Assembly (NCBI RefSeq): GCF_019649055.1
Contig: NW_026570221.1
Coordinates: forward strand, 434,001-498,000
Direction: 5' to 3'
Length of the DNA: 64,000 nucleotides
Source: Paramacrobiotus metropolitanus
Taxonomy: Eukaryota > Tardigrada > Eutardigrada > Parachela > Macrobiotidae
The notes beneath the pieces were generated by a model that was given only the letters and a program-made list of their open reading frames with translations, did no database searches and was not told the DNA's origin. The first letter of the stretch is position 1; every line of letters starts with the position of its first letter. Made by a program: the position numbers and the translations under genes. Positions 4,548 through 45,968 of the stretch are shown in pieces.

Positions 4548-4550
4548 TAT

Positions 4551-5996: not shown

Positions 5997-5998
5997 AA

Positions 5999-14159: not shown

Positions 14160-14370
14160 CCGAATGCTTTAATAGCCAAATCTAAGGGCTATGGCTATTT
14201 TGCCGCAGTATAACAATAAGGGTTGGAATAGCCCTCAGGCTATTTTGCCGCACAGTGCGTCGGGATAGCCAGTTGGCTATTTTGCCGCACTATGGTTGGC
14301 GAAATAGCTTGTTGGCTATTTTGCCGCAGCCTGCGTTGGAATAGCTAGTACGCTATTTTGCCGCAGTTTA
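14160..14370 (+). repeat. Left tandem array of MULE1 (about 38-bp unit)
   Basis: Five GGCTATTTTGCCGCA cores starting near 14193, 14238, 14275, 14314 and 14351. Each unit also holds an inverted AATAGC(C/T), so units can form hairpins. Confidence 0.82.
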
Positions 14371-14435
14371 TTTTTAATTTTTCAAACACCTTTCTGTTAG
14401 CTAGATTGCTACCGACAAGGCGACAACTAACTACC

Positions 14436-14630
14436 CAGGGCCCGGTCACCGCCTCCCCCCTCAGAAAAATTTCGTATATTGCTTAAAGACAGGGTAGGTA
14501 TTGAGAATACTTAAAAAAGTATTTTCGTCGGAAATGGTCCAGTAGACGTGGCCAAAAACTAATTTAACTGCCGTATGTATTGTGCTAGTGCACTGGCTGT
14601 ACATACGGCACTTAAACTATATTGGCCAAT
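14436..14630 (+). repeat. Dispersed repeat, copy 1, ending in a hairpin
   Basis: Shares the order CCCGGTCACCGCCTCCCCCC, TTTAAAGACAG-like, GAA..TACTT, GTCGG, GGTCCAGTAGACGTGGCC with the copy at 15430. It ends with the palindrome TGCCGTATGTA...TACATACGGCA. Confidence 0.6.
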
Positions 14631-15429
14631 GTACGTATGAAGTAAGTATGTATTCTCATTAAACGGTGTTCATCGGACTGGTGAAAACGTCATGGCTGTT
14701 TTACTATGCATAGAAGTAGCAAAGCATTGTGTGCAAGATGACATGGTTCTTTCTCAAATCGGCCTCTCAGTGAATTATCTAGGCGCCTAACAGCCTCGCG
14801 AAGAAGTGTTTCTTGGCGTACTGTCTTGCAACGAAATGTCGCGCGGCGAGATGACCTTTGCGGCGAGATGTCTGCTACCAAATATACTTCGACTAATTGT
14901 ACTCGGCAAAATGTCCCGGTGCCAACTGAGAATCTTGGGACGGCCTCCAGTACGAAATCTTCCTTTTACTAGTAGCTGCAAAGTTACAGTTATTTAGCGC
15001 TGCATATTTAAAGTAAATGAGAACGCTCATGGCAGAGGTTAGGCATTCACGGCAGAGTGCTCGATCGCGGCATTAGAAAACAGTAAACAAAGCCTTCCTG
15101 ACGTTTATGAATTATAGCTGCCTTTTCGACTTATTGCGTGGAATGCTAAACAAAAGCTAAGAAAACCATAAAAATTAAAAGGTTTCTCTGTGTGAGCCAG
15201 CTACTATCTTTTAACAAAAATTTTTAATTTTTTAAACTCGCCAACACCGTAGACTATGAGAGATCATGTCACACAGAATGTGTCTCTTCTATGGACAAGC
15301 TTTTGCGTTTGACAGCCCATGGCATTACTAAAGGATCACACTGTTTAATGAGGCTAGGTATCCAAAAGATCCAGATATTTGATTATGAACTACTCAAAAT
15401 ACTTCTAAAGGGCATGCAAGTCTTAAATT
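14631..15429. other. Subterminal MULE1 sequence, no gene
   Basis: Contains a short repeated motif GGCGAGATG (14840-14870) and otherwise AT-rich unassigned sequence. Confidence 0.35.
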
Positions 15430-15610
15430 TAAGAGGGACCGGTCACCACCTCCCCCTCATAAAAATTTCATATTTTGTTTAAAGACAGATGTGGCGAACA
15501 CTTAAGAAATACTTTTGTCGGCAATGGTTCAGTGGTCGTGGCCAAAAATAAAGTGCCGTATGTATTGTCAGTGTACCGTACATTGTACTGGCAATACATA
15601 CGGGACCGCG
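15430..15610 (+). repeat. Dispersed repeat, copy 2
   Basis: Direct copy of the 14436-14630 repeat: GGGACCGGTCACCACCTCCC, TTTAAAGACAG, TACTTTTGTCGGCAATGG, TCAGTGGTCGTGGCCAAAAA. It also ends in an inverted repeat around a palindromic GTATGTATTG/CAATACATAC. Confidence 0.6.
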
Positions 15611-15879
15611 ATCCGTATTACCTGTTATCACTGCATCTGCAAGCTTGCATCTTGACTACTAATTCTTAATTTTGGGTTTTACGACATGCCGTCTTTAAAA
15701 TCTAACCGGTAGTCGATTTGATTTAATTGCACGGCTTATCTCTAAATTCTTCTCTGTGTTGCACCACGCGCGCGATTCTGGCAAGTACAAAGAGTTCACA
15801 AAACTTTTACATTCTCAAGCCAGGCAGTTAAAAATAAAATCTGTTGAAGTAAAAATCAAACCAAAAAACGAAATAAAGC
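15611..15879. other. Unassigned spacer
   Basis: No supported feature. Confidence 0.3.
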
Positions 15880-16100
15880 TAAGAGAGGTGAAACCTGAGA
15901 ACACCTAAAAGCTCAACGCAAACTTAGGAAAACTTAAGAAACCTAAGAGAAACCTAGGAAAGGTTAGAAAACATGAAACGAAGGACAACATAAGAAAGCA
16001 TACGAAAACAAGAAACACAAAACAAACCGAAAAGACGAAAGCATAAACGTATGCAAACTTAAGAAATATAGGAAAACCGAAGAAGAAAACAAAGAAAACT
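15880..16100. repeat. Purine-rich degenerate tandem tract
   Basis: The plus strand is almost free of long pyrimidine runs and repeats variants of AACTTAGGAAAACTTAAGAAACC. A degenerate minisatellite rather than coding sequence. Confidence 0.6.
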
Positions 16101-16189
16101 TGAAAGCTATCCGGATCAATTTGTTTTGCTGTGGATTGCTCGCACCAAGAGATCCCAGAGATGAAATGTTTCAAAGCAATTCGGTCCAA

Positions 16190-16767
16190 ACTGCAAAAAA
16201 CCGAAATGTCGCAGCTTTCGTACGTTCCGCGTTGAAGCGTCTTTATGGCAAAAATTCACGCGTCGAATTTATTTGCGGCGACATATTGCACTCCCGGTTG
16301 TCCAGTGCCAGTTTAAAATGGCATTTAAGGGAGCTGTTCCAATACCTCTCAGTGAAATGAAATTTGTGAAAGGTCTATCGCTGAAAGATAAGAAGAGGCC
16401 GGATGTGATCACCCTCATACCGTGGAAGCGCGGAAAACCGCTTGCAGTTGATGTGACCTGCGTGGACACACTGGCGGCCTCCTATATCGAGCGCACTTCC
16501 GTGAACGCCGGCGCAGCAGCCAAACTCGCTGAAAGGAAGAAACTAGCGAAACACGGCTGAATGCAAACAAGATACGATTTCGTTGCTGCAGCCTTCGAAA
16601 TTTACGGACCTTTTGGAGACGGTACTAAAAAGCTAGTAGAAACGGTTGAAAATGGTATAGCGACTTCAACCGGCCAATAGCGGGCGAAAGAGTTTTTAAA
16701 CAGCGAATATCTATGCAAATCCAACGGGAAACGCGATTTGTGTAATGGGTACGATCTCCGATCCCTC
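16190..16767 (+). pseudogene. Non-LTR endonuclease-domain relic inside MULE1
   Basis: After a frameshift near 16315 the frame reads KRPDVITLIPWKRGKPLAVD and VDTLAASYIERTSVNAGAAA, up to a TGA at 16558-16560. It resumes as YDFVAAAFEIYGPFGDGTKK with further stops. This is the same domain as at 11.1 kb, with clear sequence divergence. No reverse transcriptase remains. Confidence 0.65.
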
Positions 16768-18176
16768 AGGAAAGCATAGAGAAAGTGTTTCTTTTGTAAA
16801 CGCCGTTTTGTTCTGGTGCATAGTTTGCACTCGTACCATGATACTTATAAAGGTTATTATCAAATTTGTGAACAGCGAGAAATATCAGGATTGCTGCCTC
16901 GTGGTCAAAGTTATGTTGTAGTATCGAAGTTATGTTGTAGCGAAAATAGCCATAATAATCGAACAATTAAGTAAAATTTTGAGCCAACTGACCTTTCAAT
17001 AAATTCCTTTTGAAGTCGTTAGAGATGTATACAATTTGTATAACGTGAAAATAATAGTGCTCGTTAACGTAGTTTAGCGATTCGGTAGTGGAGAAAGAAA
17101 CTTGTTATTGTCGTTACACTAGAAGGGGTGCTTCAAATGTGCTGACCTTTTGCTGCATTCTTTTTGCGGTCGAGAATTTGCGGTTGCTAAGTTCGTGTAA
17201 ATTGTAAGGAGCACCTATGACTGTCGGCAAGAGAACAAACGGACATAGAGCGATACTGCCTTTACCCGGCAAGAAGCTAACGCATTGTGCTCAGACAAAG
17301 CTATTTTGAAAGCGCTTTTAAACCACAAAATAAGTCGGAGCCGTTTCTTGTTACTGATATTACCGCCATAATAATTTGTCATAAATACTAATTGGTTTCG
17401 AAGTGTTCGTAAGTGGTAACACACTTTCAAAATTTTTTAGGCGGAATGGCCACGATGGTAACTCGTACAAAAAAGGATGAATACGAACTCAATTGCTAGC
17501 AAGCGAACTGATGCAGTTTAGCAAATGTTCTGTATAAAAGTGTTAGAGTAAAAACATAGATAAAGTTGGCAACGCTGTTAATTTCAGTGGCGCAGTATTA
17601 GCAGACAGCAAAACACGGAACAAACAGTAAAGTAAAATTCCTCAATGGTAAATACGTGAGTGATTAAGCGACAGATTTCTAAGTTTCAACGGGGCAGCTC
17701 ATGGTATGCTTAAGAAAAAAGACAAGCTGCATCTCCTCGGGTTTCTTTGGTACACTGGCATGTAGCTCAGAAGCCACAGGATGATGAAACAGTTGCGACG
17801 GTAGACGCTTGCGTGAACACCAAATCGTTGGATCACTCAATTGGCTCGCCGTTTGCGCAGTTATCTGTAACTAAGAGGATCCGAAATTATTGATCTGTGT
17901 CAACAGAATTTTTTAATGGCTTTGACAGTTTTTAAGTTGTACAAACTTTGAAGGAAAGTAAAGCTTTAAATACGTTTTCGAAGCCTTCCTAATTAAAACC
18001 TGTACCGGCACAAACGTTATTGCAATAATATCAAAAGTCAACGCGTTTTCTCAAAATAACAGCTAAATTTAGATTTCCTAGCAAGATTATTTACTGTGAG
18101 CAACTTTCCAAAAAGACGTCTCAAAAAAAATTGTACTAGACACTTTTTTAACCAAGAAAAATATATGATCTCTAGT
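16768..18176. other. Unassigned sequence 3' of the ULP1-PHD gene
   Basis: AT-rich, no supported gene. It should include the 3' UTR and polyadenylation region of the minus-strand gene. Confidence 0.35.
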
Positions 18177-21100
18177 CTAAACTGAATGAAAATTTGCGTA
18201 ACTTTTATACGGCCTACCAACAACTGAGCATTTTTCCGTGCTGCCAATTGAGCACATATCCCCGGTCCTGCAGTATTCGCAAATCCATTTCGGACGCTCC
18301 TGTCCTGCACCTTTTTCGCGGGCCGATACGCACTGTTGGTGAAAATATTTAACGACGCATGACTTATTAGCGCACTTTATCATAAGGTCATTATGGAAAC
18401 AGTCGGTAAATTCAGAGGGCATTTTCGGCATGCGACAGTAACAGTAGATTTTGACTGTGGTCGCTGATTCTTGACTACTCCGGATGGTAGAAGTGTACTG
18501 ACGATCCGGTGCCGAAGGAAATCCGTGGCCGGCAGCGAATGAACCTGCTTCGAGCCTTTCAACCAAATACTCCCGACATCGTTGAAACGGTTGATCGGTC
18601 CTCTTTAAAAAGAGCGAAATTTACGACAAAGCCTATATTAAGCTCGGCTGATGCACTTGTTTCCATTCACTTCTGTTTATCCCAACGGCAACTACATTTA
18701 CAATTTTTATATCATCCGTATGAAAGGTCAAAAGTGGACCTTATTAAGGAAACACTTTAGTGATGGCCCTGGAAATCGTCGGCAGACTCGGTGCTGTTCC
18801 AAAAAGGGCACGGATGCTCAATAGAAATAAATGTTGGTTTTGTACAACGGGAGCCGTATCTCAACTTTAGTCGCCAGTAGTTCGACTCTGAAGGCATCTA
18901 TCACCATTGAGGTATTTCAGTGTACTGACGCTGACGAGCTACAATGATTATAGGTATTTCAGTGTACTGACGCTGACGAGCTACAATGATTATAGGTATT
19001 TGAATTCATCACCTTTATCTAGCTGGTAGGGCTAAGCAAGTTACCCCGTGATGTAGTACTATGAAGTAACACAAACTGAGCTTAGCACGGAAGAAAATTA
19101 TTAAAGATCGGTGCTGCGTGCACGGGCAAACTGTGGCGTCTACTGCGTGCTCGGCGCCCGGCAAGGGTCTTGAATGTGCATGAATGTATGTTGCGCAGGA
19201 ACGGGATCTGTCTCTGTTCACAGAGTCCGGCAACTGGTGCTCGCTTTTAGCACGGGTTTCTGTTCTGGAATAATCGTTATAAGAATACAAACGCAAATGA
19301 ACCGTCTTGCCGAACGGTATGGCATGTGTGAGTTATTTGCAAGTGCCAATGAGAGATAAGGTTGCGCTTATGTATAGGATGGAAACTGTCAGCACATGCC
19401 CATTCTAAAGCAAAGTTGCATAAGTTTGCATCAATGCAAATCTGGTCTAGGTCGTTTTTGAATTTTACGTTTCAGTGGTAATTTCATCGTTTGTTAAACC
19501 GCTTTTTTCCCACTTTATTCAACAAACTATTTTTAACAACCGGAATAGGTAAGCGATTTTATGTGAGAAGTAGTTCGAGAGAATCGTTCAGTGCCTTTAG
19601 AAGACTCATGAATGACCAAGCATTATGTCTAGTTCGAACTTTCGCGTTCCCGGGTAATGGCAGTAAACAAATACGGCGCCCGTTCAGTGGCATCCAGGAC
19701 GCATTTCCCCTCACTATTTTCGAGATTGTCCTCTGATTACATAAACGTTTCAACCTTATCTGATTTCAGCAGATCATTAGCCGCTTCTTTTCTGATGTTA
19801 TAATGTTTCAACAATATGCTACGAGTACAATGATACTGCAAAGTGCTGTCACAAAGAGTGAAAAGTTGCCAGTCCTCCGGCATAATAAAAAAAACATGTA
19901 TACTACGCCCAGTGACCGTTCTTCCTGCAGTTTTCAGGTCTCAATAAACAGAATATTTTTCTCTTCAACTGATAACTCTAATGGGTTGCCCTCGGTCACT
20001 CTTCAGACACTTAGACAAAAAATTAGAAAAATCCATATGCGCAATTTACACCAGCCCGAAAGGAAAGCTGTACATGGGAGCTGGGAGTTACTAACTCACG
20101 GACATTCAGTTTTCAACTGCTGATACTAGCTCCTGAAATAGCTTTGATATGAACAGATTAAAGAGATGAAACGCCGGGCACACAGATAAAGGAAGTATGT
20201 GCCGAATGCATTATACAGAGTCTAAGGTAGTGCACGGGTTGGAAGGTATTGCAAAATTTAAAAGCTGGGGAAGGACTTTTCCTTTCCAAAGCCTAGAATA
20301 CCACCACTGCCAACTGAGCAAAATCGGTAAATAAGGGAGCGACCGAATTGCCAACAATGTACCGTCAACTTAATCGCTAGATGAGTGAGCTACAAAGTTT
20401 CCAAACCATCCAGCCCTACGTGGCTCACCGTAGTGCAAATGAAAGAGATTACACAGACTTAGTGCATTTGAAGTATGTAATAAGCGGCGATTCATATGCA
20501 CTACGGGTTGACCAATTCCCGTTTAGAATTGTTTGGCAGGCGACATCAACACGCCGACCTGCAGTCCTTCCTTAAGAATTTTCACGTACATAAGCTTTCT
20601 CGTCAACCTATAGCAGCCCTAATGAAAATCATTTCACAACAAGCTCAATTTTTTATAATACCTTTTGAATGTCGAACGTGGTGAACGTAGGATCAATGTT
20701 CCGGCATAGCTGATCGGAATATCCTATTGCGTAAACTCCACAATCTTTTCCGTTGCGCTGCTTTTGCACCATGGGCATAAAAAGCTGGAGTTCCTCAAAA
20801 GCCGGGGGAAGTTGAAATACAGAAGCAATCGCCTGCTCCATTAGAGATGTAATCGACATCATTAGGCTATCAAAAATATTGATGTAATTGTCCGGTCCGC
20901 CGTGGATATTGGTCGCGGTAACCCAGTGGCAGCTACTCCGGTTAATGATCTGCACTTTTCTGAACTCTGATCGATTATGGTCGAACCATTTTAAAATGGC
21001 GTATTCGCGCCACGCATACACTAAATTACGTCCCGATTCTTTCCATTTTTCAGATCCCCTTTCGTCATCATCATCCAAACCATGTGTGCGGAAGAAAGCG

Positions 21101-22047
21101 GTGTTCAAGAAACCGCCGAGGTGTGGGTTTTCTTCCTTCAGTAGATTCAAAGCGGCTGTGCACACTTTGTCGTCAAGCCATCCTCTGCCCGTTTGATCCA
21201 ATATGACGCAACGATCCCATAGGCCCAGGCTTTGGTCTCCACAGGTAACCCAGCTACAGTCACGAGTTATCGCTATTTCTGCCAAACAAACAAAACTAGG
21301 TTAATTGTCGCTTTTAGAGTTTATACAGCTTCTTTAGTTTATACAGTTTCTTTATTTAGTTTGGTTTGACATGCGATCTGAATGCAATACAAAAATTAAT
21401 GGTACAGCCTTTTAGTTACTAAAAACGCACGATCGCAAGAGCATAATCAAGGCTTCTAACGCATTTAGCAGCGTTACAGTGCCGCAGAAAAGAGCGCTGC
21501 TACTGTTATTTGAGAATGATCAGCTGCGAAATATTAAGTTGGTTAACTTCCTGTCAACATCGACAAAGTTAATGTTGGATAGTTGTGCTAGTTACCTGTA
21601 CCTACCAAGAACAGTAAATTTGACGTAGGTGATCTGAGCGAGTTGGTAAAAATGCTGAACGACAGTCCAATCCAGCATTCGCCGCGCTTCTGGTGCCAAA
21701 CGACAAAGCGTGCGAAAAAAATTCCTCCAACTGCGAATACTTTTAGGATACTCTACGCCGATACGTAAATGCGCAGTACGCAACATCCCCTTTGTTTGGA
21801 CACCATTTTCTGGAACTTTGATTAACGACCTTATTTGAGTAATTATGTCAGCTGAGAAGATAGAAGCGAGTTGGCAAAGGTCTTCGGCAGTACACCGGTC
21901 TTTAGGTTTATCGGTGGAGTCACTGATCTGCATATCGCTATCGCATTCGTCCTCCGCTGAACCACGGTCATCGGAATTTTGTTTTTCTCGCGGTGGTGAT
22001 TCTCGTTGATCTTTTCCAGTGACCTGTAAAGTATAGCCCAGCTTCAT
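18177..22047 (-). CDS. ULP1-like (C48) cysteine protease fused to a PHD finger, 3 exons, intact
   Basis: Exons 22047-21606, 21278-20662 and 18602-18177. Introns are 327 nt (donor G|GTAGGT, phase 1) and 2059 nt (donor AAG|GTATTA, acceptor TTTTTAAAG, phase 0). Phases match, no stops occur, and the model gives 494 residues from ATG 22047 (MKLGYTLQ). The first 148 residues are acidic then unassigned. The protease domain (about 150-385) shows the catalytic set: His in SSCHWVTATN (about 265), Asp in NIFDSL (about 274), Gln in MVQKQ and Cys in NGKDCGVYAI (about 327). The C-terminal PHD-like finger (about 405-465) has the C4HC3 order CYCR, IKCANKSC, YFHQQC and WICEYC. ULP1/SENP proteases cleave SUMO-like modifiers; PHD fingers bind histone tails. 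It lies just downstream of the MULE1 transposase, same strand. An upstream splice acceptor (TACTTTACAG at 22024) leaves open that it is a 3' part of the transposase gene. Confidence 0.75.
18911..18994 (+). repeat. Exact 42-bp tandem duplication
   Basis: GGTATTTCAGTGTACTGACG... occurs twice in a row (18911-18952, 18953-18994) and a third partial start follows. It is inside the second intron of the ULP1-PHD gene. Confidence 0.9.
18995..20661. other. Remainder of the large ULP1-PHD intron
   Basis: No gene on either strand recognised. Confidence 0.4.
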
Positions 22048-22247
22048 TATCAACTTTGATCTTGTAATCAGAAATTATTGGCTCTCACTACAGCAAAAAG
22101 CATGCCAGGTTTCTCTAGACAATATGCAGCAGTCTTTTCAAAGCAAATGCTAGGGGAAGCCTGCGGTCTTTGTATTGCGACACTGGCTACAGTGACCTTT
22201 TTTACAAACGTCTGACCAATCGGTTGTCGCTTCCAAATTACACGTCG

Positions 22248-23110
22248 GATAACATCGCCTTTGCCGTCCATTTGCCTTTGCCTTTCAGCTTGCTATTTTC
22301 AACTTTTAGTTTACCTTTGCCTTTGCCGTCGGAAAAGCCTTTAGCATTCCAATTTGCCATTTCCGAACGCCATCTGTAATAACCTTTGCCGTTTGAAAAA
22401 CGAATTGCCGTTAGCACATTGACATTTCTAAACTTCTTTTGCGCGTTTCCGGTTTCACGGGTTTTCACATTATTTTGCATATGTAAGGAAGGGAGGGTGT
22501 ATGTTATAGAGAAGTAGTGGAAATATCAGCAGTAGAAATTCTGCTGCGGTCAGCATAATTGGAGGCAACAAGATGCTGTGGGGACTGTATATCCGCAGTC
22601 TGCTACTTTCACTTTTGTTGTTCGCCTTATTAGGCACAGGTCTACATTGCGTATCACGTTGCTACTTCTTCGAATGTCAGACAATCTTGAAAAGTGTTCA
22701 TTTAAGGATTGTATATTGCGTTAGACCTTGCAGTGCCAACAGTTTTGATCCTTTAAGTATATTTCGAATGAGAATTAAAGTGTACGTCTTGTGCATCTCA
22801 AGCTTAATTATGGCGGTGTATAGAAAAACAAAATACCAAAAGCTTTAAAACTTTTGCGGACTGTGCACATAACAAAATGCAGAATAGTGTAAAAACCCGT
22901 GAAACCGGAAACGCGCAAAAAAAGGTTAGAAATGGCAATGTGCTAACAGTAATTCGTTTTCGAGCGGCAAAGGCTTTTACAGACGGCGTTCTGAAACGAA
23001 AAACTGGAATGATAACAGCTTTGCTAACGGCAGAGGCAAAGGTAAAGGTAAAGTTGAAAACGGCAGACTGAAACGGCAAAAGCAAATGGACGGCAAAGGC
23101 GAAGTTGGCC
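22248..23110. mobile_element. Foldback/TIR element FB2 (about 0.86 kb)
   Basis: Arms of about 230 bp at 22248-22480 and 22877-23110 are inverted copies. Landmarks are CGCCTTTGCCGTCCATTTG versus CAAATGGACGGCAAAGGCG at the outside, and CGTGAAACCGGAAACGCGC at the inside. The arms are rich in TTTGCC(G/T) words. The 400-bp centre has no recognisable gene. No target duplication was found. Confidence 0.7.
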
Positions 23111-23303
23111 GACCCGATTTTAATGTCAGTTGGTGACCTTTGAAAAACTGCCGCATTAGCTGGCCAATACAACTTGAAACGGCAGTAGCACTGCCAGGAG
23201 GCTAGACCTCATTGCCGGAACGACGTTAGCTGTGTCCGGCATGGGGGACATTACTGCTGAATCAAAGTTAGTAGTCTCCGTTATGTGGAACGCTTTGCCG
23301 GTC
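23111..23303. mobile_element. Decayed fragment of FB1
   Basis: Contains GGTGACCTTTGAAAAACTG (FB1 subterminal), one degenerate 42-bp unit (CATTGCCGGAACG...GTGTCCGGCATGGGGGACAT) and the FB1 end GCCGGTCACA at about 23293-23303. Next to FB2 and inside MULE1. Confidence 0.68.
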
Positions 23304-24421
23304 ACATACGTCCGCGGCTGCGGCCGCACTGCGACCGCTGAGGGTGAGTTGATTTTATAAATACTACTGGCGTTAGATTTTACCGTGAGAGATTCTTCCA
23401 TTTGTGTTTTCTTCGTTTTCTTGCTAGGAATGTTGAACTTCGCTTTCCTTTTATCACCTCTCGGTCGTCCTGGCGGTTGCGAAGTCATTGCTGCAAGTTT
23501 AAACGGAAGTTGCTTAAGCGGGTCTACGTCGTGACAGCGGCTGCCGTCTTTCCCGACCGAAGGGGAAGGGCAGTTCGATTTCGTCGGCTTTAAAGCAGCT
23601 ATAAATAAAAATTCCAAAGTTTGCAAGGTGACCTGCATCTCTGATTTGTCTATTGGAGAACCGTGTATGGCAGGAGAACCTATAGAAACGTGTACTGCTG
23701 TTTTCTACGGCTTTTATGCCGCGTATTGTTACCTTTATTGGTTTCCTCTGGTACCTTATCCTCTGTCTCACGGTTATTACTGGCATTCACAGCAGGTTCT
23801 GACTGCAGAGCTGGTGGACGTTCGATAGTCATGGGATCGAGAACGACTGTTTCGGGCTGTTGCTCTGATACTGCGAGATCAGCTGCGGTATGAACCGATG
23901 CCTGAGTTCCGAGAAGTTCCGAACTGCTCGTTGTTTTGGGCTGTTCAGCTATCGCGATGACAATGTCTTTGCCAGGAATGCCATCTTTAATGGCTGTTTC
24001 TACTTTGTGCAGCAAGTCCATGTACTCCGCGTAGCGCCGTCCTGCATACACTGCAATAGCAGAACACATCCGTTTCGCAGTGCCTAGTGCGACGTTGTAT
24101 CGGGCTTCACGCGGCAGCGCGTGCTTGACAACGGCGTCACTGTCCACGTAGTTTTCAATTTCGTCATCATCTAGTCGATGTGCGGCTTGAATCAGTATCG
24201 CTGATCGCAAAAAGTCCGAATCAACCCCCGAGAAACAACGCTGCCATCGCGTGATCACATCGCTGATTTCTACATACGACCCAGTCAACGATTGTCTTAT
24301 GTGCATCACATGCCGGCAAGGCAACCCAAATCCACAGCTGAAAAAACATGAGCACACGAGCCGGGATACTGGCTTTTCCGGCATTGAACGGTCACAGTCC
24401 CCTTTTTCGAATTGTAGGGAG

Positions 24422-25858
24422 CAGACCTGGGCAGTTAATTTTAACTATTTAACTTAACGCGAGTTTTTTTCGAGTTAACGAGTTATAACTTAACTTTGAA
24501 GCTTAACTCGCCAGGATGAAAACTTAACTCTAGCGCAACTCAAAAATAATATAGCGCAACTCGAGTTTAACGTAACTCTGGAGGTTTCAGTTGAAAGCAA
24601 AAATGAAATTAAAAAATAGAAAATATCAGAAAAATGTTATGTTAACCGTGGATCGCATAAATTGCCATAATTACAAAAGTATCTGTACAAAATTTCTCGC
24701 GCAGACGTACACTACGACCGCCCAAGGCTTTGACTAGACTAGGAAAAATGCACGTTGGCGTGCATTTGACAGACCGGAGCGCAGCATTTCCTTTGAGTAC
24801 AGTATACTACATTTTATATTACAAACTGTTTAAGTATTTTAATACTATTTTTATATGTTGAATAATGAAATTTTATATTATTTTGCAAAACGACTTAGGA
24901 ACATAAGCATAGACTTCCAGTTACTCGTTGGAAATGGCTTACGTGACAACCTTTCGTAACGACCTTTCGTAACGGACACAAATCAACGAAAGTATGTATT
25001 AATCTACCTTCGCTACGCTTCGGTCGATGAATATGCATCGGAGAGTCCATGCTGACAGTGAATGTGATCGTTCAATTTGAGCTCAATTAACAGCGTGCAG
25101 AGAACGTAATTTTTGCGGAGCAAAATTTTGTCAACGAGAGGACAAATCATGTTCCGCGCCAAAATCACACGGGAACTGATCGTCTGTGCGCTACCTGCTA
25201 CCTGTAATTGTTCGCTACCTGCCCATTAGGGAAGCGTAATAATGCGGTCAACGCTGTCAAACAGCTACACTAACTTCGGTAGCCATGTGAAGCGAAATCT
25301 TAGTAAAAAAGTTCAGCGTTGCCGGCGCTCGGCCCCAAAAGCCAGGGTCAAAAAGAGGGAGGAATTTTGTCAGATAAGAACTTCTTATGTTTGATTTTTT
25401 CTTGAGGGTGAGAGAAAACAGGCAGGAAAAACAATAAGAACAAAACACAAAAAACACAAGCATGTTTTCTTTACGTATATGTTTCATTCTTTTGTTTCAT
25501 TCTTATTCTTTCTTATGTTTTATTTATATTTTATCTTCCTCCCTCAAGAAAAATGTGTCTCTCGCTCTCTCCCTCAGGAAAAACATGAAAAAGGAACATT
25601 AGAAAAAGCATGAATTTTAAAAATCAGTTTTAAGAAAAAAATTAATAATTGGTCTGTGTCTCAAATCTGGTAAAAGTGATATCGGTATGCATAAAAGACT
25701 ACTTGAAGTTGATTAATAAAATCATGATTTTTTTTATTAGAAGTTAACTCCAGTTAACTCTAGTTATTGCGGCTAACTTAACTCGTAGCGTAACTCGCGA
25801 GCTGCGATTAACTCTTAACTCTAACTATGAGTCGAAATCTAATAACTGCCCAGGTCTG
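24422..25858. mobile_element. hAT-type non-autonomous element, 1437 bp
   Basis: Ends are CAGACCTGGGCAGTTA and its perfect reverse complement. Flanks are a perfect 8-bp duplication GTAGGGAG (24414-24421, 25859-25866), the hallmark of hAT elements. Subterminal regions carry many GTTAACT/TTAACTC words in both orientations. No transposase frame is recognised. Removal with one target copy rejoins the MULE1 SWIM exon in frame. Confidence 0.92.
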
Positions 25859-26166
25859 GTAGGGAGTACATTGCATCTGTTTGTTTGTTGACCAGTGTCC
25901 AATTACCACCATCGATTTCTTGCACTTCGTAATGTATCTGTTCACCTCGCAGCTTTCTTATTTGAATGTAAATTAGACGCACGGCACTTTCCGTCAAAAC
26001 TTGTCCCGCCTGTTGCAAAGTAGATCCAAATTCCTCGCAGTTGACGTACGTGATCTTAGCGAGGTTTGCAAATTCAGAATGCCGGGAAGAAGCATCCGCC
26101 ATACAAAGATACCGGATCAGCGATGAAACAGCTTCGCTGGTACGCATCGAAGTTCTCTGTACAGAT

Positions 26167-28961
26167 CTGAAAAAATTAATGTTATAGTAGTCGTACTGTT
26201 ATGCTTTTGCGCGATGTCATACATAACACGGTCTAGCGGCTCGTTAGCCGAAAAACCAATCTTCAACGCCTCAATACTGAAGGAACGACTTAAGATGTTT
26301 CTTTTTTACCGCATAGCGGATCTCCCCAAAATATAGGTTCGCGTACCAAACACCATAGACAAGGTATTCTTTGAGTTCTTCTACATCAGAGTAGAAAATT
26401 ATTTTTAGTTGATGTTGCGCATGCGTGTAACGACTTCAATTGGCGATAATATTATCTTCAATATGCTAACCACCGCTCAGAGCGCATGAAGTCGCTTGTT
26501 ATTGTGCACATGACAACATCGGCATGCCGCTGTCGCCGTTGTCCTGCGAAATCACTACACAGAGTCCACAGCGGACTGAGCGGACGGCACATTCTCTATG
26601 GCATCACCACTATGTCACAACAACCTTGTACAAAAGCGCAACCAGTTTCTGAAAAAGTCTGTCATATGAAAATTAATAGCGCGGAAAATACCGTGGCAGC
26701 GGAAAATACCTCACCAAATGCAATAATGACCCGTAATCTTGAATGTAGCTACTCGTGCTGGATGAGATTTGACATCGTTAAGTGAAAAGAGTGTCACTGC
26801 TACAACCTTTAGCGCTGTGCAGTCTCCAGTAACAAGAGAAGTAAGGTGAAGTGTGTATACCACTATCAGGGCTAAAGTACGTGTATTGTATGAATAGCTA
26901 ATGTCAGAATTTAGATAAGCGCTGAGATACTTTCTGCTTGGTCACCGCCCTATCCACGCACGGTGATCGTTGGTGCCGACAGGAAATTTTGGCGGTGGCT
27001 ATATATATAAAGAAATAAAATACCCACACTACATGTAGCTGGCGGACTCCGAACATGAAACATAGTGCTTGCTTTCGAACGAGTTACCGTGAAGGTGTCT
27101 CCATTCACCGATTACTGAAACGCTGATGTCGGTTTCCATATTCAAGAGCCTCGTTGAAAATAACACCGATCTAAATACGCCTGCTGACCATCACAAAGAT
27201 CCAGTTAGTTTATGACTGTGTAGGCAAGACTGCACATCACATAATAATGCGCCTGCGCGGGTTTAACACTAAAAAAAGTGTACTTAATATACCTATGATT
27301 AAATTAACTGTGCAGAGGCAAGCATTCGGGAAAAAAATAAGGTGACCACCCCGTACACAACCTTTCGTTGCAATTCATTCCGTGCACCACGTTTTTGGGA
27401 ATTTTCCTTCGGTAGACTACCTTCGACACTACCATTCATTTGGTACACTACCAATTGCACGCTAACTTTCACTCACCAGGGCACATATCAGAAAAATCTT
27501 ATCTTTTGCAAAAACTTCGTATACCATAGTACTATTATTAAAAAAATAATTTCATCTGCCGACAGTCAAAAGGCGTGGCCAAACAAAATTAATCAGTACG
27601 TAATACTGTATTACGAAATACAATCGAATAGCTCGTATAGGCTGTTTGTATAATAGTTTTGATACAGATACAGCACGAAAGTTTCATACCACCATAATTA
27701 TTACGATTAGCAAAATAGTTTTGTGTGCAAAGGTTAAGACGACACGCTATAAATCCCATTCGGGGGTTGCGGTGCAGTGCGCTATTGCAACAGTACAAAA
27801 ACTGTCACAGTGGCGCTGATTTTTAAAGATAACTGTTAAATTATGATTCTATAATCCCTGAAACTAGTTAAAAATAAATCTTTACCAGTTGCAAGCAATT
27901 AAGTTTTGCATTCAGGCCTGAGTATCCATCGTTTATTTATTCCGCGCAGTTTTGCGCTGGGTCTGCAAGTTATTCTACAAAACAGCTTCAAAAGTATTGC
28001 GCCAGTGCTTTGAATTCACTATGGAGTATTACGCACGAATAATTCTGTTTGACCTTTGAGCGTCCGCGACCAAATTACATATATGTAAAACACTTAATTT
28101 TAAGAAAGCGGAAGTCTTAAGGGAATTAGGGTTAAAAACGTTGCTGTTCAACATAAAATTACGGTCAAGATTGCGCGTTTTATTCTTTGGCGCTCGCGAC
28201 AGAGATTGCCCTTTGTAGAAAAGCCCGCGCGACAATTTCTTATTCAGCTAGAGACCCACAAAATCGGGTCAAAAATTCGTTCAAAGGCGGCGATGTTCAA
28301 AATCTGTGAAGAAAATCCGGCACACGGGCGCCTAGAATTATTAATTACGCGAATTCGATGTTAGAACTGCCGATGCTGCTCGGAATTAAGCAGCAATTAC
28401 AGCTGTTAATTAGAAAGCGGCAGTTCTAAAAATAACTTAACTGGGAAAAAATAAAAAAAAACTGAGAGTATGCACGCAAATAAAGGTAGTACGCAATTGT
28501 TATGTACGGAGTAAAGGGTATTGCTGATAAAGATAGTGTATGCCGAATGAAATGAAGCGCAAAAATGCTGAACATGGAACGAAAGGTGGTGCAAAAAGTT
28601 ATATACGGAGAAAAGGTAGCGAAGGGTTGTGCTCGGAGTGGTCACCACAAATGAGAGCAACCTTCATTAAGAGTTATCTCATTCGTCATGCAATCAGACA
28701 ATAATTCCGGCGACGCATCGATTGTGCATTGACCGGCGATACCGAGAGCATTTTTTACAGATGGAGATGAGCAGTAAAAATCTTCGGCGGCAGATTCCCT
28801 GATGTATACCGAAAGGTTACTGCAGTCGGGAAGAAACTCTTACAACATAGTAGTTACGATAAAAATTCCCATACTGATCTACACGCTTTTTAGAAGATAC
28901 GGGACAATGGGTTCGTCTAACTGTTTTACAAGATTGATGAAGACCGTTTTAAGCAGCTTAC
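26167..28961 (-). other. Long intron (2.8 kb) of the MULE1 transposase
   Basis: Bounded by donor CTCCG|GTAAGC (minus strand, 28962/28961) and acceptor AATTTTTTCAG (26167). The two flanking phases fit. No gene or element was recognised inside; its length compared with the 134-533-nt introns nearby suggests it grew by insertions. Confidence 0.6.
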
Positions 28962-30766
28962 CGGAGAAGCGATTTAATCGCACGGTTAAGAGCTTCCACT
29001 CGGTTCGTTGTATTGTTGCCAAGCGCGCGCATTTCTTTCCGGTTATAAAATGCCCACATATCCACGCAAGGAAACCAGTTGCGAACGCAATACTGATAAA
29101 ACTCGTCCGTACAGATTTTGGCAAACTGCTGCATTCCAGTCTGATATTCGTTTACTGATTTGGAGTATAAAAGCAACTGAAAGGCTGCAAACATCGCTTT
29201 TTTACGCTCCTGCGTCTCTCCTGATGCAGCCACTTCGAATTTGATACTTTTCAGTACATGGAACCAACACAACAGTATAGCGACACCCCGGAATTCTTCT
29301 CTTAGTGCTGCAATCTCTTTCCGGTCTTTGTCGACAAATACTGCCGAAATGCGATCAATGTTTTCCGCTGTCGTGGTTTCTTTAAACAGTTTCAGGAAGC
29401 CGCCAATCAGATTACTTGTGTCTTTCGTAATAAAACCAACTGCTACCGGTCTCGTATATCCGTTGTTGTCTTGGGCCGCCAACACATACAACGGGTAACG
29501 TTCAGCAGTCACGTTGTACGTTCCATCCATGAATAAAACTTCGGGAAATCTGAAAGTAGGCGTTTTCCATTACTATATGTACTTTAGTGACCTTACCCTT
29601 CATACTCAAGCAATTAGCGGCTATTTCGTACCACGGTCACTACTACCTAAAATCTTAAACACGCGAAGAAAAGCGGTTCAACTAAACTAGTAAATTTATT
29701 GAAAAAAACTAGCACTTGACTGCAACAACCTTATATTTAATGTACGGCTTTAACAGTTCGGGGTATACCGTAATTATCGAATTTGTACCACTGGGCGGCA
29801 GATAATTCGAATTACCTGGTGCATGTGCGCTTATTTTGGGTAGTTACGGTTATCATAAGGTGCTACTATTTCTCAAACAATCGCTTTGGAGTGGGCCATT
29901 ATTTTTTGAAACAAATCTAAACCGAGCGTTGTAATAGGTGTAATTCTCGCGGCATAAATTCGATAATTATGGTACATGGTAAAAAGTTGAGCAAATTTAA
30001 ACATTTTCTAATTACCTTTTGAACGTCTCCTTCATTTTGCTTGAAACAAGAACTAGCACTTCCAAGTCTCCATGCGCAGTTGCCATATACTTCACTTCCA
30101 GACCAGGGTCAGTTTTTAATGCATTTTGCAGTCCTTCTTGCAATATCTCCTCTTGTGACTTTCCGCCTCGTACACTGCATTTGTCTTTGGTACGGATGTT
30201 GTGGATATCTTTGGGACGCACTTCCTTACCGATGTTTTGCTTCATTGACGCAACAATTGCACTTACACCAGTTCCCATTCGAAGCAACTCCTTCGCTTTC
30301 TCGCGATCTTCTGGTGCCAATCTCCGGACAGCAGGGTAGTGAGTATAAGCTGCATCCAGAAGTTCATGATTGTGTTGCAGCGAACTTTGTGTGCAATGAA
30401 TGCAAGCGCCCCTTGGTTGTAGTAAAAAACAAGCCTCACAGGGCAGTCTCTTTTGAAAGTGCTCTGAATTGGACGAACTTCCATAGGTTTCCGGGATCCT
30501 GTTCTTTTCCCATGAGTACACAGAAGTTCCAGCCTAAGGTACTCGCCTGGCATATCATGTCGAAACTTTGTCCTTCCTTTACGGAAAACCTGCTTTGTTC
30601 TTTCGGAGTAAGACTGAATAAAATTCATCAAATCTTTCGTGCTCGGCCAATTGCCGCCAACTAAGATCAATTCAGCAGGTTCGGAAACTGAAGCTCGCTG
30701 ACCAGGATCGCCACAAGGTGCCTGCACAGCGCTTTCAGCGTCTTCGCTCAGTTCGCTGTCTTCCAT

Positions 30767-31869
30767 TTTGCGTAGCCACGGTATTCCAAATGCCCAAAGA
30801 CGCAATTTAGGCAAGAATAAAATATTTCAAAATGCAGAATACATGTTTAATAATCTTTTTCCATAGTGGATCGCTGAAAATCTTCATCCACACTGTTTCT
30901 GTGCGAGTGAAATTCGAACAAAATCTTGGTGACCTCGTTTATCTCAGTCAGAAAAGCTCCGGCCATGCATATGCCGTGCGAATGTTGATTGGTCGCTTTA
31001 CACCAAGGCGCCATTATTGCTCAACTTTTCTCTAATTTTTGTTCTTGTTATATTGCTTTGCCGGGCATGCAATTATATTTGGCACCCGCAAATAATCTGT
31101 CGATCACAAAATGTTATCTGGGTAAATAAAAAGAGCTTTTATCCGAATAAACTTGGGTATACAAGTACATACGCATGTGGCATCACCATGTCCGCGCTTG
31201 GGTCGCTCACAATGTCCACACTTTTGTCGCTCACAGCCCCGTATTAAAAAAACCTACAATCAAACATTCATCAACTAAAAACGTGGAACATTTTTTTGAG
31301 GCGGCGGATGGCTATGCACTGCTAGACGATATAAAAACTACTTGTCACGAGTCGGGAACCGAGTACTATAAGTTCAGTATATTTTTATTTTTTCGCCATT
31401 TACCACTTAGCTGCAGTAAATTGACCGTCTGAAGTTTTGGACAAAATAGCTGTTGTTCGTAAAAATGGTTTTAGAGAAAAATTCTGTCCAAACGATTTGA
31501 TTACTTCAACCGCTCGATTTAGTTGCACAGCTGCAAGGCCCGGCCGGTGTGTGCTTTGCTTCGGACACGTTACATCGCGCAGCTTGTGTAAGGCTATGTT
31601 GCGCATTCTCATGAAGCGGGAAAATATTCGAATCTATTCTAGAACAATGTGTGCAATCTCATAAAATTATCGAGTGCGCTGATAGATGGGCGTTGTCGCA
31701 TCGGTAACTGAAGGAGACCAAAGTTTCTGCAGACCGTAAATACAAACGAAACACGCTCGCTGTAGCGTTTCCCTTTTCATATTAAGTGGCGATGACCAAC
31801 GGACGGACACCACCAGTTAACAGCAGTGACTATATAATACATACAATATGGACGATAAATTTATGTACA
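30767..31869. other. Upstream region of the MULE1 transposase
   Basis: Likely holds the transposase promoter. No supported gene on either strand. Confidence 0.35.
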
Positions 31870-32560
31870 ATTCCCGAGAGTTCGTGCACTGAGCAGCGTA
31901 GATGGCTACGCCCTTTACTTACTTCGCGATTTTAATCACTGAACCGTCGTGTAGTAATAGCTCTGTTACGATTTGTGAGATTCGTCGCCCATCTACCTAA
32001 ATACATTTTGTGCGGTGGACAGCGGTGGTATGTTGGTCAGTTAATCACCTAGCGATTTTGTTTACTCTACAGAGGCGGCAGCTTGGGCACCTCAGCTACC
32101 TAACAATTTTGCTCATTTGAGCAGTAGCGTAGTAGTGCTGCTAACTTAATCATGACCTGTGAGCTCGGTGACTCACAAAACTAACGGTTTTGCTAACTGT
32201 ACAGTCATAGTTGCTCAGTCAACCTAGAGGTATCACGCATTGAAAAGTATTATTAGCTCGGTGCTCCCTCAGGCTCACTCACTCGCCTTGTTTATGCAAT
32301 GGTGGTAGCTCGGTGATCTCCGTCACTCACCCAACTAAAGATTTTGTGTACTGGATAGCGGTTGCAGTTTATTTGCGATTTTGGAGACCAGTTTGCCCGT
32401 CACAATGGCGTTAGCTGGCTTACCTATAGATTTCGTGCACTGAAAAGCGGTGGTAGCTCTGTCACTGTCTTGATTATCGATTTTGCGCGCTGTGCTGCGA
32501 TGGCATCTCGGTGACCTCGGTCACAATCCTCTAGTGATTTTGTGCAGTGACCAGTTACCT
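31870..32560. repeat. Degenerate minisatellite, unit about 75-80 bp
   Basis: Successive blocks repeat the order (C)GATTTTG(T)GCACTG, (A)CAGCGGTGGTAGCTCGGTGA, CTC.GTCACTCACC, e.g. at 31870-31935, 32000-32055, 32310-32350, 32425-32475 and 32480-32535. Units are diverged, so this is old. Confidence 0.6.
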
Positions 32561-35500
32561 GGATAGCATTGATAACAAATCAATACTTACTGTATTTTCA
32601 GATAGTGCGTGGTAGTTTTTTGTTCGCTGGATAGGGGCATGCGGTAGTTTAGCTGTAAATTCGCGCTGTCGATTAACCGGAAAACATGGTACGTTCAACA
32701 TATTTAGCATGATTGATGAATCCAGAAGAGCAGAATTATTGGGATTGTTTCTTGTATTTAAAAATGCGGCTCTAGAAAAAGTTTGAGAATGTGTTCTAGC
32801 AAAATCAAGCACCCCAATAATCTTACAGTACTAGTGCACGTACAATACATGCATCGGCCAGATCTTGTATGGCTAGCCGGGCTAAGAGCTTCATATACGA
32901 TGTGTAGTGCAAGCGTGCCGACAAAAAAAGTAAAGAAGCCGTTTTTCGATTAAGTCTAATTACATGTTCAATACTTATTTTACGCAGATATGTTGTCTAA
33001 TATTTTGTCTAGGCAAACTCTTTCCAAGTTTCAAAGTCACCGTAAAATTGGGTTTGACATTTTACGGCATCGCGCTGCCCGGATTCAGTTCGGACGTATC
33101 CAAAAGGCAAAGGTTATGAACCACGACCGATCTGACTGCGGTCTCAGATTTCTAGATACGCTTTGGGTTAGAAGGATCTACAGTCTTTGGTGAGGCCGAT
33201 GATTTTTTTTTAATACGTCTTTGGTGCGCCAACATCTGTTAGCAAAAACAACGCATGTTTGCAGGTAGTGGCGATCAACAAACAAATTTTACATTTTCTG
33301 TGATCGCGGAACATTGAGGACATTCGACTTTTACTTCTATGCATCGGTCGAACCCCGTGCGTAGCCTTTCTGAAGGAATTGTACCAACGGCTCTGCTCCA
33401 CTGGTCGTTCATTCAATCAACCCTTTTCAACTTTGAAAATTTTTTGATACGCCGGTGCCTGCACAAATCGGTTTATCGAATCGTCGTCAAATCTGTAATG
33501 ACAGAAAGGACAGTAATATTTTTAAAAAACCACGAGAAAGATCTTCAGCTCACGAGTGGTGATAAACTGTGCATTTTACATCCTGCGAACCCAGGAGCGA
33601 AGCTGTTCAGCGAGCAGTTCCTACACGGTCAATCAATTAGGACCAATCCCGCACATTATAGAAGGGAAAGTTTTGGCTTTCTAAATTACCAGTTGTGCTA
33701 AAAAAGAAGCAAACAATCACAGTTATTTAGACAGACTGATGGCCGGCATCCGGCGATTATTAAAATCTGACAATGATCCGCAGCCAACTTTTCAAATTAA
33801 CACATCTTCGCATACATTTTCCTGTTGGCCATACCATGCTGCAAATGGTACGAATCTAAAATGTATAACAGCTTTCATCAGTTGTTCCGAGTCATTGTTA
33901 CGACGAATTTATGGAAAGGAGATGTACAGTGCGGGGTTAACCCGTTGACGGGTATTGGCGTCAGGACGCAACATGGTCTTTTGAATTTTTTTCCCAATGA
34001 TTGGGAACAAAAAAAATGAATGAATATCAGTTAGCATAATTAGCAATAAGAGACTTTAAAGCAGCAGTAAAAACATAATTCAAACTTATATCTCAAGTGT
34101 ATTTACAAATGACCGTTGCCCGAAAATGGCTAATTTCGGACTTTTCAAGCTCTCGCAGATCTTGCTAATTAACTAATTAGTGGATGAATAACTAAACAAG
34201 AGATAAATCAAAAAAGGACAACTAACAACGTTCTATTCCAAATCAATTAACACGGGTCTCGTAAGTTGAACCGTAGAAGACCACAGTCCGTCAAAAATTT
34301 GTGTAGCGTGCCAACACCATTGCCCATGAAGGGTCTCGAATACACGGGCGGGTGCAATTTCGACTATTTCTCTTTATCACATAATCAGATCAAGTTACTG
34401 TCGGTTCGTACGCAAAACATGCGCCACGCGGTTCTGTTGGTCGGAAACTGGCAAAAAACGCTTCTGCGTATCAACACCCCGGGCGGTCGGCAAAAAGACA
34501 AAATCGTCTCTAAATTTTTCGGCTTCCGGAAAACGGAACGCTTAGAGGAACCGAACATGATAGTCCTAATTGTAATTCTATACCGTCGTTGCAGTAACAA
34601 TGTAAATGGCGGCACAACACCACGGCGGCCCGTTTCTACATATTAATGTATTGCTTGGGCAAGCTATGCGAGAGCTGCATAGCTTTTCAGAAACATGAAG
34701 TTTGTTCCATCAGTCTCGGGCGGTTAAAAACTACAGTAACTGCTAGTGCTCACTATACGCGTGCACATTGGGGATCTTGACCTTTGCGGCAGCCTAGCTA
34801 TTTTCTTCCGGTCGCTAACGCGTTCCAGAAGGTGCTAGTGACCGGTGTCTAATATCTCATTTTGCGCTAATAACCACTGCAGCTGGACTATCCGCGCCGC
34901 CTTTTTGGACAGTGGCACTTGCGGCCATACCAAGGAAAAATGCATATGCGCACTATGCGGGCAGTATAAAGGCGGCTAGGCGTGCCAGACATTCAAGAAA
35001 AGCAATGTTAAACTTCAAAAATGATGCTTCGTGCAGTCTCGTATGAGAGTATAATGAAAGTTATGGGAGAGAAATATCGTTAGCATCGTTTACTTTCTGT
35101 GTTCCATCTGTAAATAGTGGTCAAAATACATGGCAACGGGATATGGCAGTTTTTAATTTTTTGCTGACCAGTGGTCAACTTGTTGACCACTGCTATGCTC
35201 TTGTTTGGAAGTCCTTTTTTTGTATTATTTAATGGATTTATTACTTTTATTTAATTTCCGTTCGTCTAATTATCACAAAATTAAACGTTTTATGCTGTAG
35301 ACCGTCCATGGGCATTGGCGTTGGCAAACACCCTAGTCACCAACGGCTGATCTATGGTCAGCACAAGCTTACAAAAAATTCCCATTCTTAATTGATTTTT
35401 TTCATCGGGAAATCCCGATTTTCAAAAGGAAACTCGCATTCCTTCGGGTACCGCCCGCTGGAGGGTTAAGAGTCTGTCCAGGTGACCCCCAAGGTGTATT

Positions 35501-35699
35501 TGTAACGTCAGTCATCGCTGAAATCAGCCTTTCACTTCCGCCTTTCATAAGTGCCCTGCGCCTCTTGTCGCTCCAGTTTTCCGGGATAATGATGATCATA
35601 AATGGTAGCTGTTTGCCTAAAATGGTTGCATGAATTTGTCACTAAAAGCTGTACAGGCACCAATATTCTGGCACAGCGCAACAATTAGGATCAGTACTT
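32561..35699. other. MULE1 left-over sequence, no gene recognised
   Basis: Several open frames of 60-126 codons on both strands (e.g. 33339-33701 and 34266-34646, plus) without domain, signal peptide or splice pattern that I recognise. Cargo genes cannot be excluded. Confidence 0.35.
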
Positions 35700-35892
35700 T
35701 TGCCGCACTACTGAATCAGTAGTGCGGCAAAATAGCCTAACGGCTATTGGGCCGACCGTAGTGCGTTTAAATAGCCTAATGGCTAATTAAGCGCAGTGTG
35801 CGGCAAAATAGTCTAGTGGCTATTGCGCCTACCATAGTGCGGTAAAATAGCCTACTGGCTATTCTGCCGCAAAGACTGCGGCAAAATAGCCA
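35700..35892 (-). repeat. Right tandem array of MULE1 (about 38-bp unit)
   Basis: Five inverted units TGCGGCAAAATAGCC near 35723, 35760, 35799, 35838 and 35877. It begins with a hairpin TGCCGCACTACTGAAT/CAGTAGTGCGGCA. Confidence 0.82.
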
Positions 35893-35906
35893 CTTCGAAA
35901 TCTAAG

Positions 35907-36503: not shown

Positions 36504-37831
36504 TTATAGACTGGTTCCATCATTAAACACGATCTTGTCGCCGACATCCGCAGGTACCGCAGCAGTATAATTGGCACTCTTGGGCGTAATAGTAACATTC
36601 CCGATGCAAATCGGTGTCTTTTGACGGAGGACTTCCAGATTGACATAGAACACGTACAACTCCTTCAGGTGAACTTTCCCTGAAGTGTATTTCGCTATGT
36701 CAGTGAAGTACAAATCGTCATCTTCCAACACCTCGTTATAAGCTTGCATTACCGGAATTGGTGCTGTACTGTGAATGCCATTCAGCATCTCTCGCACCCA
36801 ATCTCCATGGTCGCTGAGAACGGCATCCAATCGGCGTGCTTTGACATCGGGACGCTCAGTCGACGAAAACGTTGCCTCCCACATTTCCGACGTAAAGTTA
36901 GCGGTTGTGGTACAATTATACGGGAAAACAGCTTCCATTTTCCGTTCCCTTTCCAGTCTTTCCATTTCGTCATCTTCAACGAACTCGTTTTCGCCTAACA
37001 ACTTTTCAACGGCTCCTGCAACGAGCGTTTTAGTAAAACTGTTGTAATCCTTAGCGGACATAAACACGTGATTTTGCCCGGCTGAGAGCCGTTCCGCAAC
37101 GAAGTTAACAATCGTGTTGTTGGGAAGATGGGTTGTATCGATGCACAGTAGAGTCGAACGAACGCTCGAGTCTATTGCGAAAGCAACAAATAAACGCGAT
37201 GCAACAATCCCACTATCGTCCCGCATCGTATCGTTGTACGTGGCGTCCGTGGGACAGGCAATGCGCACGGAGGCCGTCGGGTCCCAGTTGGTCAGGAACT
37301 GCCAAGCACTGGTTGTGGTCGTTGGGGTGGAGTCATTGGTTGAGTAGCCTACCAGCATCCATTTAAAGTCGAACGGAGGCAACTTGGCTTGCACACGGAG
37401 GTACATGAGCCAGGAAGCTTGGTCTCGTGCAAAACCGGTAAAAGCCCATTCATCCTCCACCCGAGTGATTGTAACCGATCCGAACAGACAGTTCGTATTT
37501 GGCTCTATGGTCACGGAAGCCGAAACCAGAGTAGATGTCAAGAGTCTTCCGACGGGTGCGTAAAACAGCGGCGTCCTATCGGAAATCTTGCTAAATACTT
37601 GAATTTGTATTCTATCGTAGGGAATTTTAATCTTCGACGGGGTTTCTGCAAATGTAACAGTTTTATGTGTCTTATGAGTGGTTCTCTGTAATGGAATCGA
37701 CACAAGTCACACAAATGTAATGCCAACCGGTTGCTGCATACGTTCATTTTGCATGAATACGTAGACTCACCGCAATCACCGGTATAAACGAGCAGGGAAA
37801 TGAACAGTACAGTATTTCGAAACGCGCCCAT
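36504..37831 (-). CDS. Secreted protein family of unknown function, copy 1
   Basis: Body frame 37685-36504 (about 390 codons). The upstream segment starts at ATG 37831 with a signal peptide (MGAFRNTVLFISLLVYTGDC). A donor G|GTGAGT at 37771/37770 and an acceptor GATTCCATTACAG suggest an 85-nt intron. The phase-1 join gives an early stop, because copy 1 has one extra base (AGAACCAC) relative to copy 3; an alternative donor AAC|GTATGC would keep the frame. The body shares KIKIPYDRIQIQVFSK, SDRTPLFYAP, WAFTGFARDQASWLMYLRVQ and PPFDFKWMLVGYSTNDS with copy 2. At least seven N-glycosylation sequons (NDST, NDTM, NNTI, NCTT, NFTS, NVTI, NYTA) support secretion. No family recognised. Possibly functional, possibly frameshifted at the junction. 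Confidence 0.65.
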
Positions 37832-45960: not shown

Positions 45961-45968
45961 TGCTACCT

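Follow-up and report, generated by a model that had tools for sequence, protein, structure and literature searches.

The 64-kb stretch of the Paramacrobiotus metropolitanus genome analyzed here (C1:434001-498000; genome 169.8 Mb, 533 contigs), referred to as the window, contains exons for a Mutator-like element (MULE) transposase next to exons for a ULP1 protease domain and a PHD-like finger, all lying between two inverted tandem arrays. This locus raises two questions: whether the arrays and everything between them represent a single transposon, and whether ULP1-PHD is a gene of its own, a passenger or a part of the transposase. The explanation that we favor, with a probability of about 0.72, is that positions 14187-35897 of the window are a young Mutator-like DNA transposon of ~20.2 kb plus a nested insert, which encodes one predicted transposase of seven exons and ~1334 amino acids (aa) that extends from a FAR1-like region to the PHD-like finger.

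The ends of this element are terminal inverted repeats with an array structure. The left repeat (14187..14366, plus strand) starts with the outer bases GGCTAT, followed by five units of GGCTATTTTGCCGCA with start-to-start spacing of 37-45 bp, and the right repeat (35717..35897, minus strand) starts with CGAAGT, followed by five units of the same motif spaced 37-39 bp apart (214 bases scanned at the left end and 201 at the right, ≤3 substitutions). The outermost six bases of the two ends are therefore unlike, and the first unit begins 7 bp inside each tip. Tandem Repeats Finder placed the arrays at 14238-14365 (period 37) and 35719-35891 (period 39), and the arms 14256-14365 and 35762-35871 show 78% complementarity across 110 nt; terminal inverted repeats are a MULE characteristic. 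Immediately outside the arrays, the 9-bp sequence AAATCTAAG is repeated exactly at 14178..14186 and 35898..35906; these are its only two occurrences in the 64 kb, both precisely at the element borders. Since shuffled sequences contained this 9-mer 0.66 times on average and at least twice in 16 of 100 shuffles, the 9-mer by itself would be weak evidence for the borders and further copies of the element were therefore sought.

Two additional full-length copies were found, each ~20.2 kb long, the window copy (W) being longer by a 1437-bp insert. Copy B (C1:885467-905719), which is located on the same contig as W at a distance of 437 kb, is >99.6% identical to W, mismatches being present at 44 of 20,283 aligned bases (0.2% divergence), and copy C (C31:380374-400584) is 98.6-99.4% identical to W. 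The similarity stops precisely at the tips of the arrays in each of the three copies, the flanks of B and C are unrelated, and B and C are bordered by their own exact 9-bp duplications, ATATTTTAT and TTTACTTAT, so that an exact duplication of the length typical of MULEs (~9 bp) is present in 3/3 full-length copies. The original prediction of one transposon with inverted tandem arrays at both ends and a direct 9-mer outside both is thus confirmed, with the 9-mer representing a target-site duplication, and W is a young insertion. In copy C, an internal inversion of ~1.2 kb was observed, matching window positions 14692-15863. The flanks of W are single-copy in the genome; an empty site was not found in the genome itself, where the joined W flanks matched just W's own two flanks.

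Relatives of the ends are more numerous, with at least 47 matches for the left end (40 of 376 candidates scored) and at least 61 for the right end (40 of 227 candidates scored), and among the matches listed many related ends form pairs 4-14 kb apart. Ten such short pairs, a subset of the larger number present, were compared at their borders; the 9-bp duplication was complete in two, retained at 7-8 of 9 positions in three and at 2-6 of 9 in five, compared to a mean of 3.3 of 9 in a swapped-pair control, in which ≥7 matching positions were reached by 1 of 90.

Inside the element, the minus strand encodes, in this order, a FAR1-like N-terminal region (exon 1, 30016..30766), the MULE DDE domain (exon 2, 28962..29549; PF10551 / PF21056), a SWIM-like region (exon 3, in two parts at 25859..26166 and 23733..24421), a GRPKG/basic motif (exon 4, 23384..23598), a conserved region that precedes ULP1 and that we named ULPN (exon 5, 21606..22023), the ULP1 (Peptidase_C48) domain (exon 6, 20662..21278) and a PHD-like finger with C4HC3-like spacing followed by the stop codon (exon 7, 18177..18602). 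As had been proposed, the transposase of W is broken, both by a 1-bp deletion in a G run of exon 1 relative to B and by the 1437-bp insert, which separates the two parts of exon 3 (24422..25858). This nested insert, which is absent from B and C, has inverted ends CAGACCTGGGCAGTTA and an 8-bp duplication GTAGGGAG that is repeated in the first 8 bases of the first part of exon 3, and is presumably hAT-like. Single-base deletions were also found in C, most of them in or beside homopolymer runs; these may be assembly errors, and the same could hold for the exon 1 deletion in W. A nested palindromic block in intron 4 (22244..23113), by comparison, has arms that match B and C too and shows no clear flanking duplication.

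The original prediction had placed ULP1-PHD in a separate gene beside the transposase, a view that was not upheld, as the exons join into one seven-exon frame. In B, all seven predicted exons are open and splice in silico to 1334 aa with no internal stop, and continuous frames without internal stops were also obtained for two diverged elements, C41 (1303 aa) and C149 (1060 aa, exon 1 not included). All introns used in these three elements are GT..AG, and the intron phases are 2,2,1,0,1,0 in B and C41 and 2,1,0,1,0 over the C149 introns covered. A conserved donor of the AAG|GTAA type terminates the SWIM exon in 3/3 elements, exon 4 joins in frame in 3/3, and a stop beyond the SWIM region would be intronic. 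Moreover, C50, a sister MULE without a listed ULP1, carries a GRPPG/basic stretch after its SWIM-like motif in one 690-aa frame, which ties exon 4 to the transposase. Taking into consideration the in-frame joins, the shared phases, the donor before the stop and the C50 frame, ULP1-PHD most likely forms the transposase's C-terminal half, encoded by downstream exons of the same gene.

With regard to domain identity, the minus-strand FAR1-DDE-SWIM transposase of the original prediction was supported for its central part, with PF10551 matching at E=5e-13 (49.8 bits, cut-off 27.6), while the FAR1 and SWIM matches stayed below their cut-offs. Zinc-binding regions of the FAR1 and SWIM types are often present in Mutator-like elements. 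Peptidase_C48 (PF02902) was matched at E=1.2e-6 (28.9 bits, cut-off 20.7), and a sequence search of the PDB returned SENP2 as the best match (E=0.0092, 32 residues). Residues H120, D139, Q174 and C182 (numbering of the frame 20653-21285), which we take to be the catalytic residues of the ULP1 protease, were found to be invariant in 5/5 aligned ULP1 copies, in agreement with the earlier claim that the protease keeps them. The PHD-like exon is homologous to that of more distant copies, one of which, L040, passes the Pfam PHD cut-off (25.8 bits). A full-length protein search yielded 6060 candidates, none with E≤0.001, in a database that is probably poor in eukaryotes, so that rarity is not implied, and 208 pattern matches in viral contigs included no relative.

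It had also been asked whether ULP1-PHD always travels with the transposase. DDE, ULP1 and PHD were all present at six loci, five of which (the window, C1, C31, C149 and C41) show the same order and strand; at the sixth, C27, they are rearranged and lie on opposite strands. The association is not universal, as C48 contains part of the SWIM region, GRPKG, ULPN, ULP1 and PHD with no DDE match and C13 contains ULP1 and PHD with no DDE match and no exon 1-5 match in ~6 kb upstream. The ULP1 exon is open in both, and terminal repeats of the element's family are found near both (C13:1279074-1279249 and C48:214590-214765); these loci look like deletion derivatives. C189 carries PHD alone, and other MULE-type DDE matches (e.g., C181, C19, C50 and C68) have no ULP1 match nearby.

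Selection on the tail was assessed, as had been suggested, by the ratio of nonsynonymous to synonymous substitution rates (dN/dS). Between C41 and C149, dN/dS was 0.068 for DDE, 0.147 for SWIM, 0.202 for GRPKG plus ULPN, 0.179 for ULP1 and 0.105 for PHD, and in the ULP1 of C13 and C48 only 5/600 bases differ, mostly silently. These values indicate that the ULP1 and PHD exons are under long-term purifying selection, like the DDE exon, and suggest that long-term conservation of the tail is about equal to that of the SWIM region. On the other hand, the intact protease in the broken window copy, which had been taken as a possible sign of separate selection, does not bear this out; exons 6 and 7 of W are identical to those of B and the whole element is only 0.2% diverged, and separate selection on ULP1 in W was therefore rejected. 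The youth of W accounts for its intact protease.

Several observations weigh against a single fused transposase with a functional tail. Splicing is predicted, with splice sites picked by eye and guided by homology; the FAR1 (14.8 bits, cut-off 28.1, B exon), SWIM (12.0 bits, cut-off 19.6) and PHD (E=0.0089, 16.5 bits, cut-off 24) matches are all below their Pfam cut-offs; the Asp adjoining the catalytic Cys is lost in C48; and the AlphaFold model of the ULP1 exon is unusable (mean predicted local distance difference test score 36.9). The dS values behind the selection estimates range from 0.97 to undefined (saturated), and other pairs were mostly saturated, while no constraint is evident among the recent copies (W vs B, 6 nonsynonymous and 1 synonymous substitutions; C vs B, 16 and 3). 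In addition, a methionine in exon 4 is conserved in 4/4 elements (B, C41, C149 and C48), where it is a possible internal start for a separate ULP1-PHD protein, and given C48 and C13 the ULP1-PHD tail may be retained or expressed where the transposase is missing.

These last observations fit an arrangement of two genes, one for a FAR1-DDE-SWIM transposase and another for ULP1-PHD with its start in exon 4, the product of the latter acting in trans or as an anti-silencing factor, similar to the separate coding genes described within plant Kaonashi (KIU) MULEs in the available portion of PMC13317346. We consider this arrangement unlikely, although it is the strongest of the alternatives, since the SWIM-exon donor and the in-frame join to exon 4 recur in 3/3 elements, the LDP..LPFKL residues upstream of the methionine are likewise conserved and the GRPPG stretch of C50 lies within the SWIM frame; the conserved methionine and the open ULP1 exons of the DDE-less loci C48 and C13 are what speak for it. 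MULEs are also known to capture host fragments (see the sections of PMC6446971 used here), and ULP1-PHD could in this case be a recently picked-up piece of a host SUMO protease, Pack-MULE style, with no role in transposition. Such a capture is very improbable given that diverged elements also have these exons, with purifying selection on all domains, that the closest relatives outside the family mostly carry PHD too (7/9 loci) and that C5, C4 and C17, which are listed by a Pfam C48 search and are probably host SUMO proteases, are not among the matches of the element's ULP1 query. The location of W and B on one contig, 437 kb apart at >99.6% identity, could finally point to a duplicated or misassembled contig, or to a host ULP1-PHD gene between unrelated arrays. 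This has next to no probability and was rejected on the basis of the similarity breaking off at the array tips of every copy, the distinct exact 9-bp duplications and the single-copy flanks of W.

If the fused seven-exon transposase is accepted, the first steps of its action can be outlined from knowledge of the family. The N-terminal region would bind the five-unit array at each end, the DDE domain would cut and paste the element with a 9-bp stagger, and DDE-less elements and elements consisting of ends only would be moved in trans. The PHD finger would dock on histone tails, and ULP1 would strip SUMO from proteins that act in silencing or repair at the donor or target site, by which the element would escape SUMO-dependent silencing or complete its integration. 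Action of the transposase on chromatin by means of its tail, through PHD docking and SUMO removal, is a rather doubtful proposal suggested by the domain identity, the kept catalytic residues and the long-term selection; alternatively, the tail might process the transposase itself or a ubiquitin-like substrate.

More distant ULP1 relatives in the same genome (24-36% identity, best E=1e-20) suggest a possible history of the tail. A PHD match was found at 7/9 distinct distant loci (C419, C35, C84, C252, C14, C58:168942 and C58:166670), that at C35 with just E=0.007 and that at C58:166670 by Pfam, and no PHD match was found at C245 and C55. One or two of these loci look like integrase-type (Ginger1-like) elements. 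Upstream in C419 lies an integrase core with a below-cut-off match (rve, E=1.1e-4), and an integrase-like tail was recognized by eye in C252, where Pfam gave no match. Among the non-MULE loci, a phase-1 acceptor before ULP1 was found in 4/5, a phase-0 donor after ULP1 in 6/7 (L033 being one base off) and a phase-0 acceptor before PHD in 3/3 located, with 2 not located. The common phase-1 entry into ULP1 and the phase-0 intron between ULP1 and PHD suggest that a cassette moved with its introns and did not evolve twice. We therefore put forward tentatively, at somewhat less than even odds, that in this lineage an intron-bearing ULP1-PHD cassette was exchanged between a MULE and an integrase-type (Ginger1-like) element, whose DDE transposases are unrelated. 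Arguing against such an exchange, the ULPN regions of the MULE and the distant loci gave only a weak profile match (probability 7.5%), the splice sites of the distant loci were read by eye, as was the C252 tail, and two of the nine loci are without a PHD match. If true, movement of a cassette with its introns between these two types of element would show how such tails spread.

The window contains a number of other features. A foldback-type element at 3138-7614 has inverted 42-bp arrays (3399-3906 and 6002-7358), and similar arrays adjoin ULP1 copies at C419, C245, C35 and C48. A second MULE (42883-45936) has FLYWCH and MULE domains at 44212-45120, both above the Pfam cut-off, and ends in inverted arrays of 15-bp units (42883-43121 and 45800-45936); it sits between reverse-transcriptase and tyrosine-recombinase-like frames (41664-42476 and 45963-47480), which look like one interrupted DIRS-type element. 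By eye, frames at 51490-52919 are similar to the final part of a further MULE transposase that lacks ULP1 (GNSTTNR motif followed by a basic tail). At 39293-40821, inverted arrays of 20-bp units enclose ~1.2 kb in a small foldback-type structure, and a long perfect palindrome was found at 48770-49877, with arms 48770-49017/49630-49877 and 49020-49228/49421-49629 that are 100% complementary. Among coding frames, a laminin-EGF frame is located at 915-1451, and a plus-strand frame at ~16166-16900 inside the element, seen in B, resembles by eye a minus-strand frame outside it at 11110-11538, which has no Pfam match. Two long and very similar frames lie 25 kb apart on the same strand (36504-37703 and 62660-63901), the former without a Pfam match at E≤0.01.

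Composite ends comparable to those of this element have been described for Tm1, a Mutator/Foldback element of root-knot nematodes, which has asymmetric outer 7-bp motifs followed by short tandem repeats, duplications of 8-10 (mostly 9) bp and non-autonomous derivatives (PMC3169594, in part). Tm1 differs in being only 2.5 kb long and in its FLYWCH-MULE transposase of 496 aa, and the text contains no mention of ULP, SUMO or protease. A search of the FAR1-like exon and the full models of the present element gave no match, up to E=0.5, to the N-terminal FLYWCH domain by which Phantom and Tm1 are recognized. For Rehavkus, which is treated as an outgroup to MULEs, the excerpted parts of PMC6446971 list no Ulp1 and describe a minisatellite before one end only; in the survey table of the Mutator group from the same excerpts, PHD, OTU and SET are among the extra domains and Ulp1 is not mentioned.

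Other likenesses are found among elements that carry Ulp1. The Kaonashi (KIU)/Vandal MULEs of plants share with the present element the possession of a Ulp1 domain, which in the plant elements is conserved in eudicots and is possibly anti-silencing, and the original prediction had viewed a metazoan ULP1-PHD MULE as a parallel case. The parallel holds for the presence of Ulp1, but Kaonashi elements are described in the available portion of PMC13317346 as lacking terminal inverted repeats and as carrying Ulp1 in a separate gene, whereas the element described here has array-type inverted ends and a predicted fusion. Ginger1 elements encode a DDE transposase with a C-terminal Ulp1, or Ulp1 plus PHD in one listed family, but this DDE is of the Gypsy-integrase type and not MULE, and the listed lengths are 2.6-7.1 kb as opposed to 20 kb here (Bao et al. 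2010, PMC2836005, in part). The animal Mutator (MuDR-type) elements of hydra and lancelet are a further case. The same paper states that Mutator transposons from hydra, lancelet and plants contain Ulp1, shows an alignment of the Ulp1 and PHD domains from Mutator and Ginger1 transposases, as named in the alignment legend, and suggests a role in transposition. Animal cases were thus already published in 2010, and Ulp1/PHD-bearing Mutator elements have been in print since then; the present element is a further good example and not a new type. Ulp1 and PHD C-terminal to a Mutator DDE within one protein are predicted here from one frame with intron phases conserved in three elements. The element represents a complete animal example, recently active and with three dated copies, of a transposase to which a SUMO-protease-type tail is seemingly attached, which makes the role in transposition suggested in 2010 testable. 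The same genome also provides a contrast of its own, in that sister MULEs such as C50 end after the GRP motif while the family of this element continues into ULP1-PHD.

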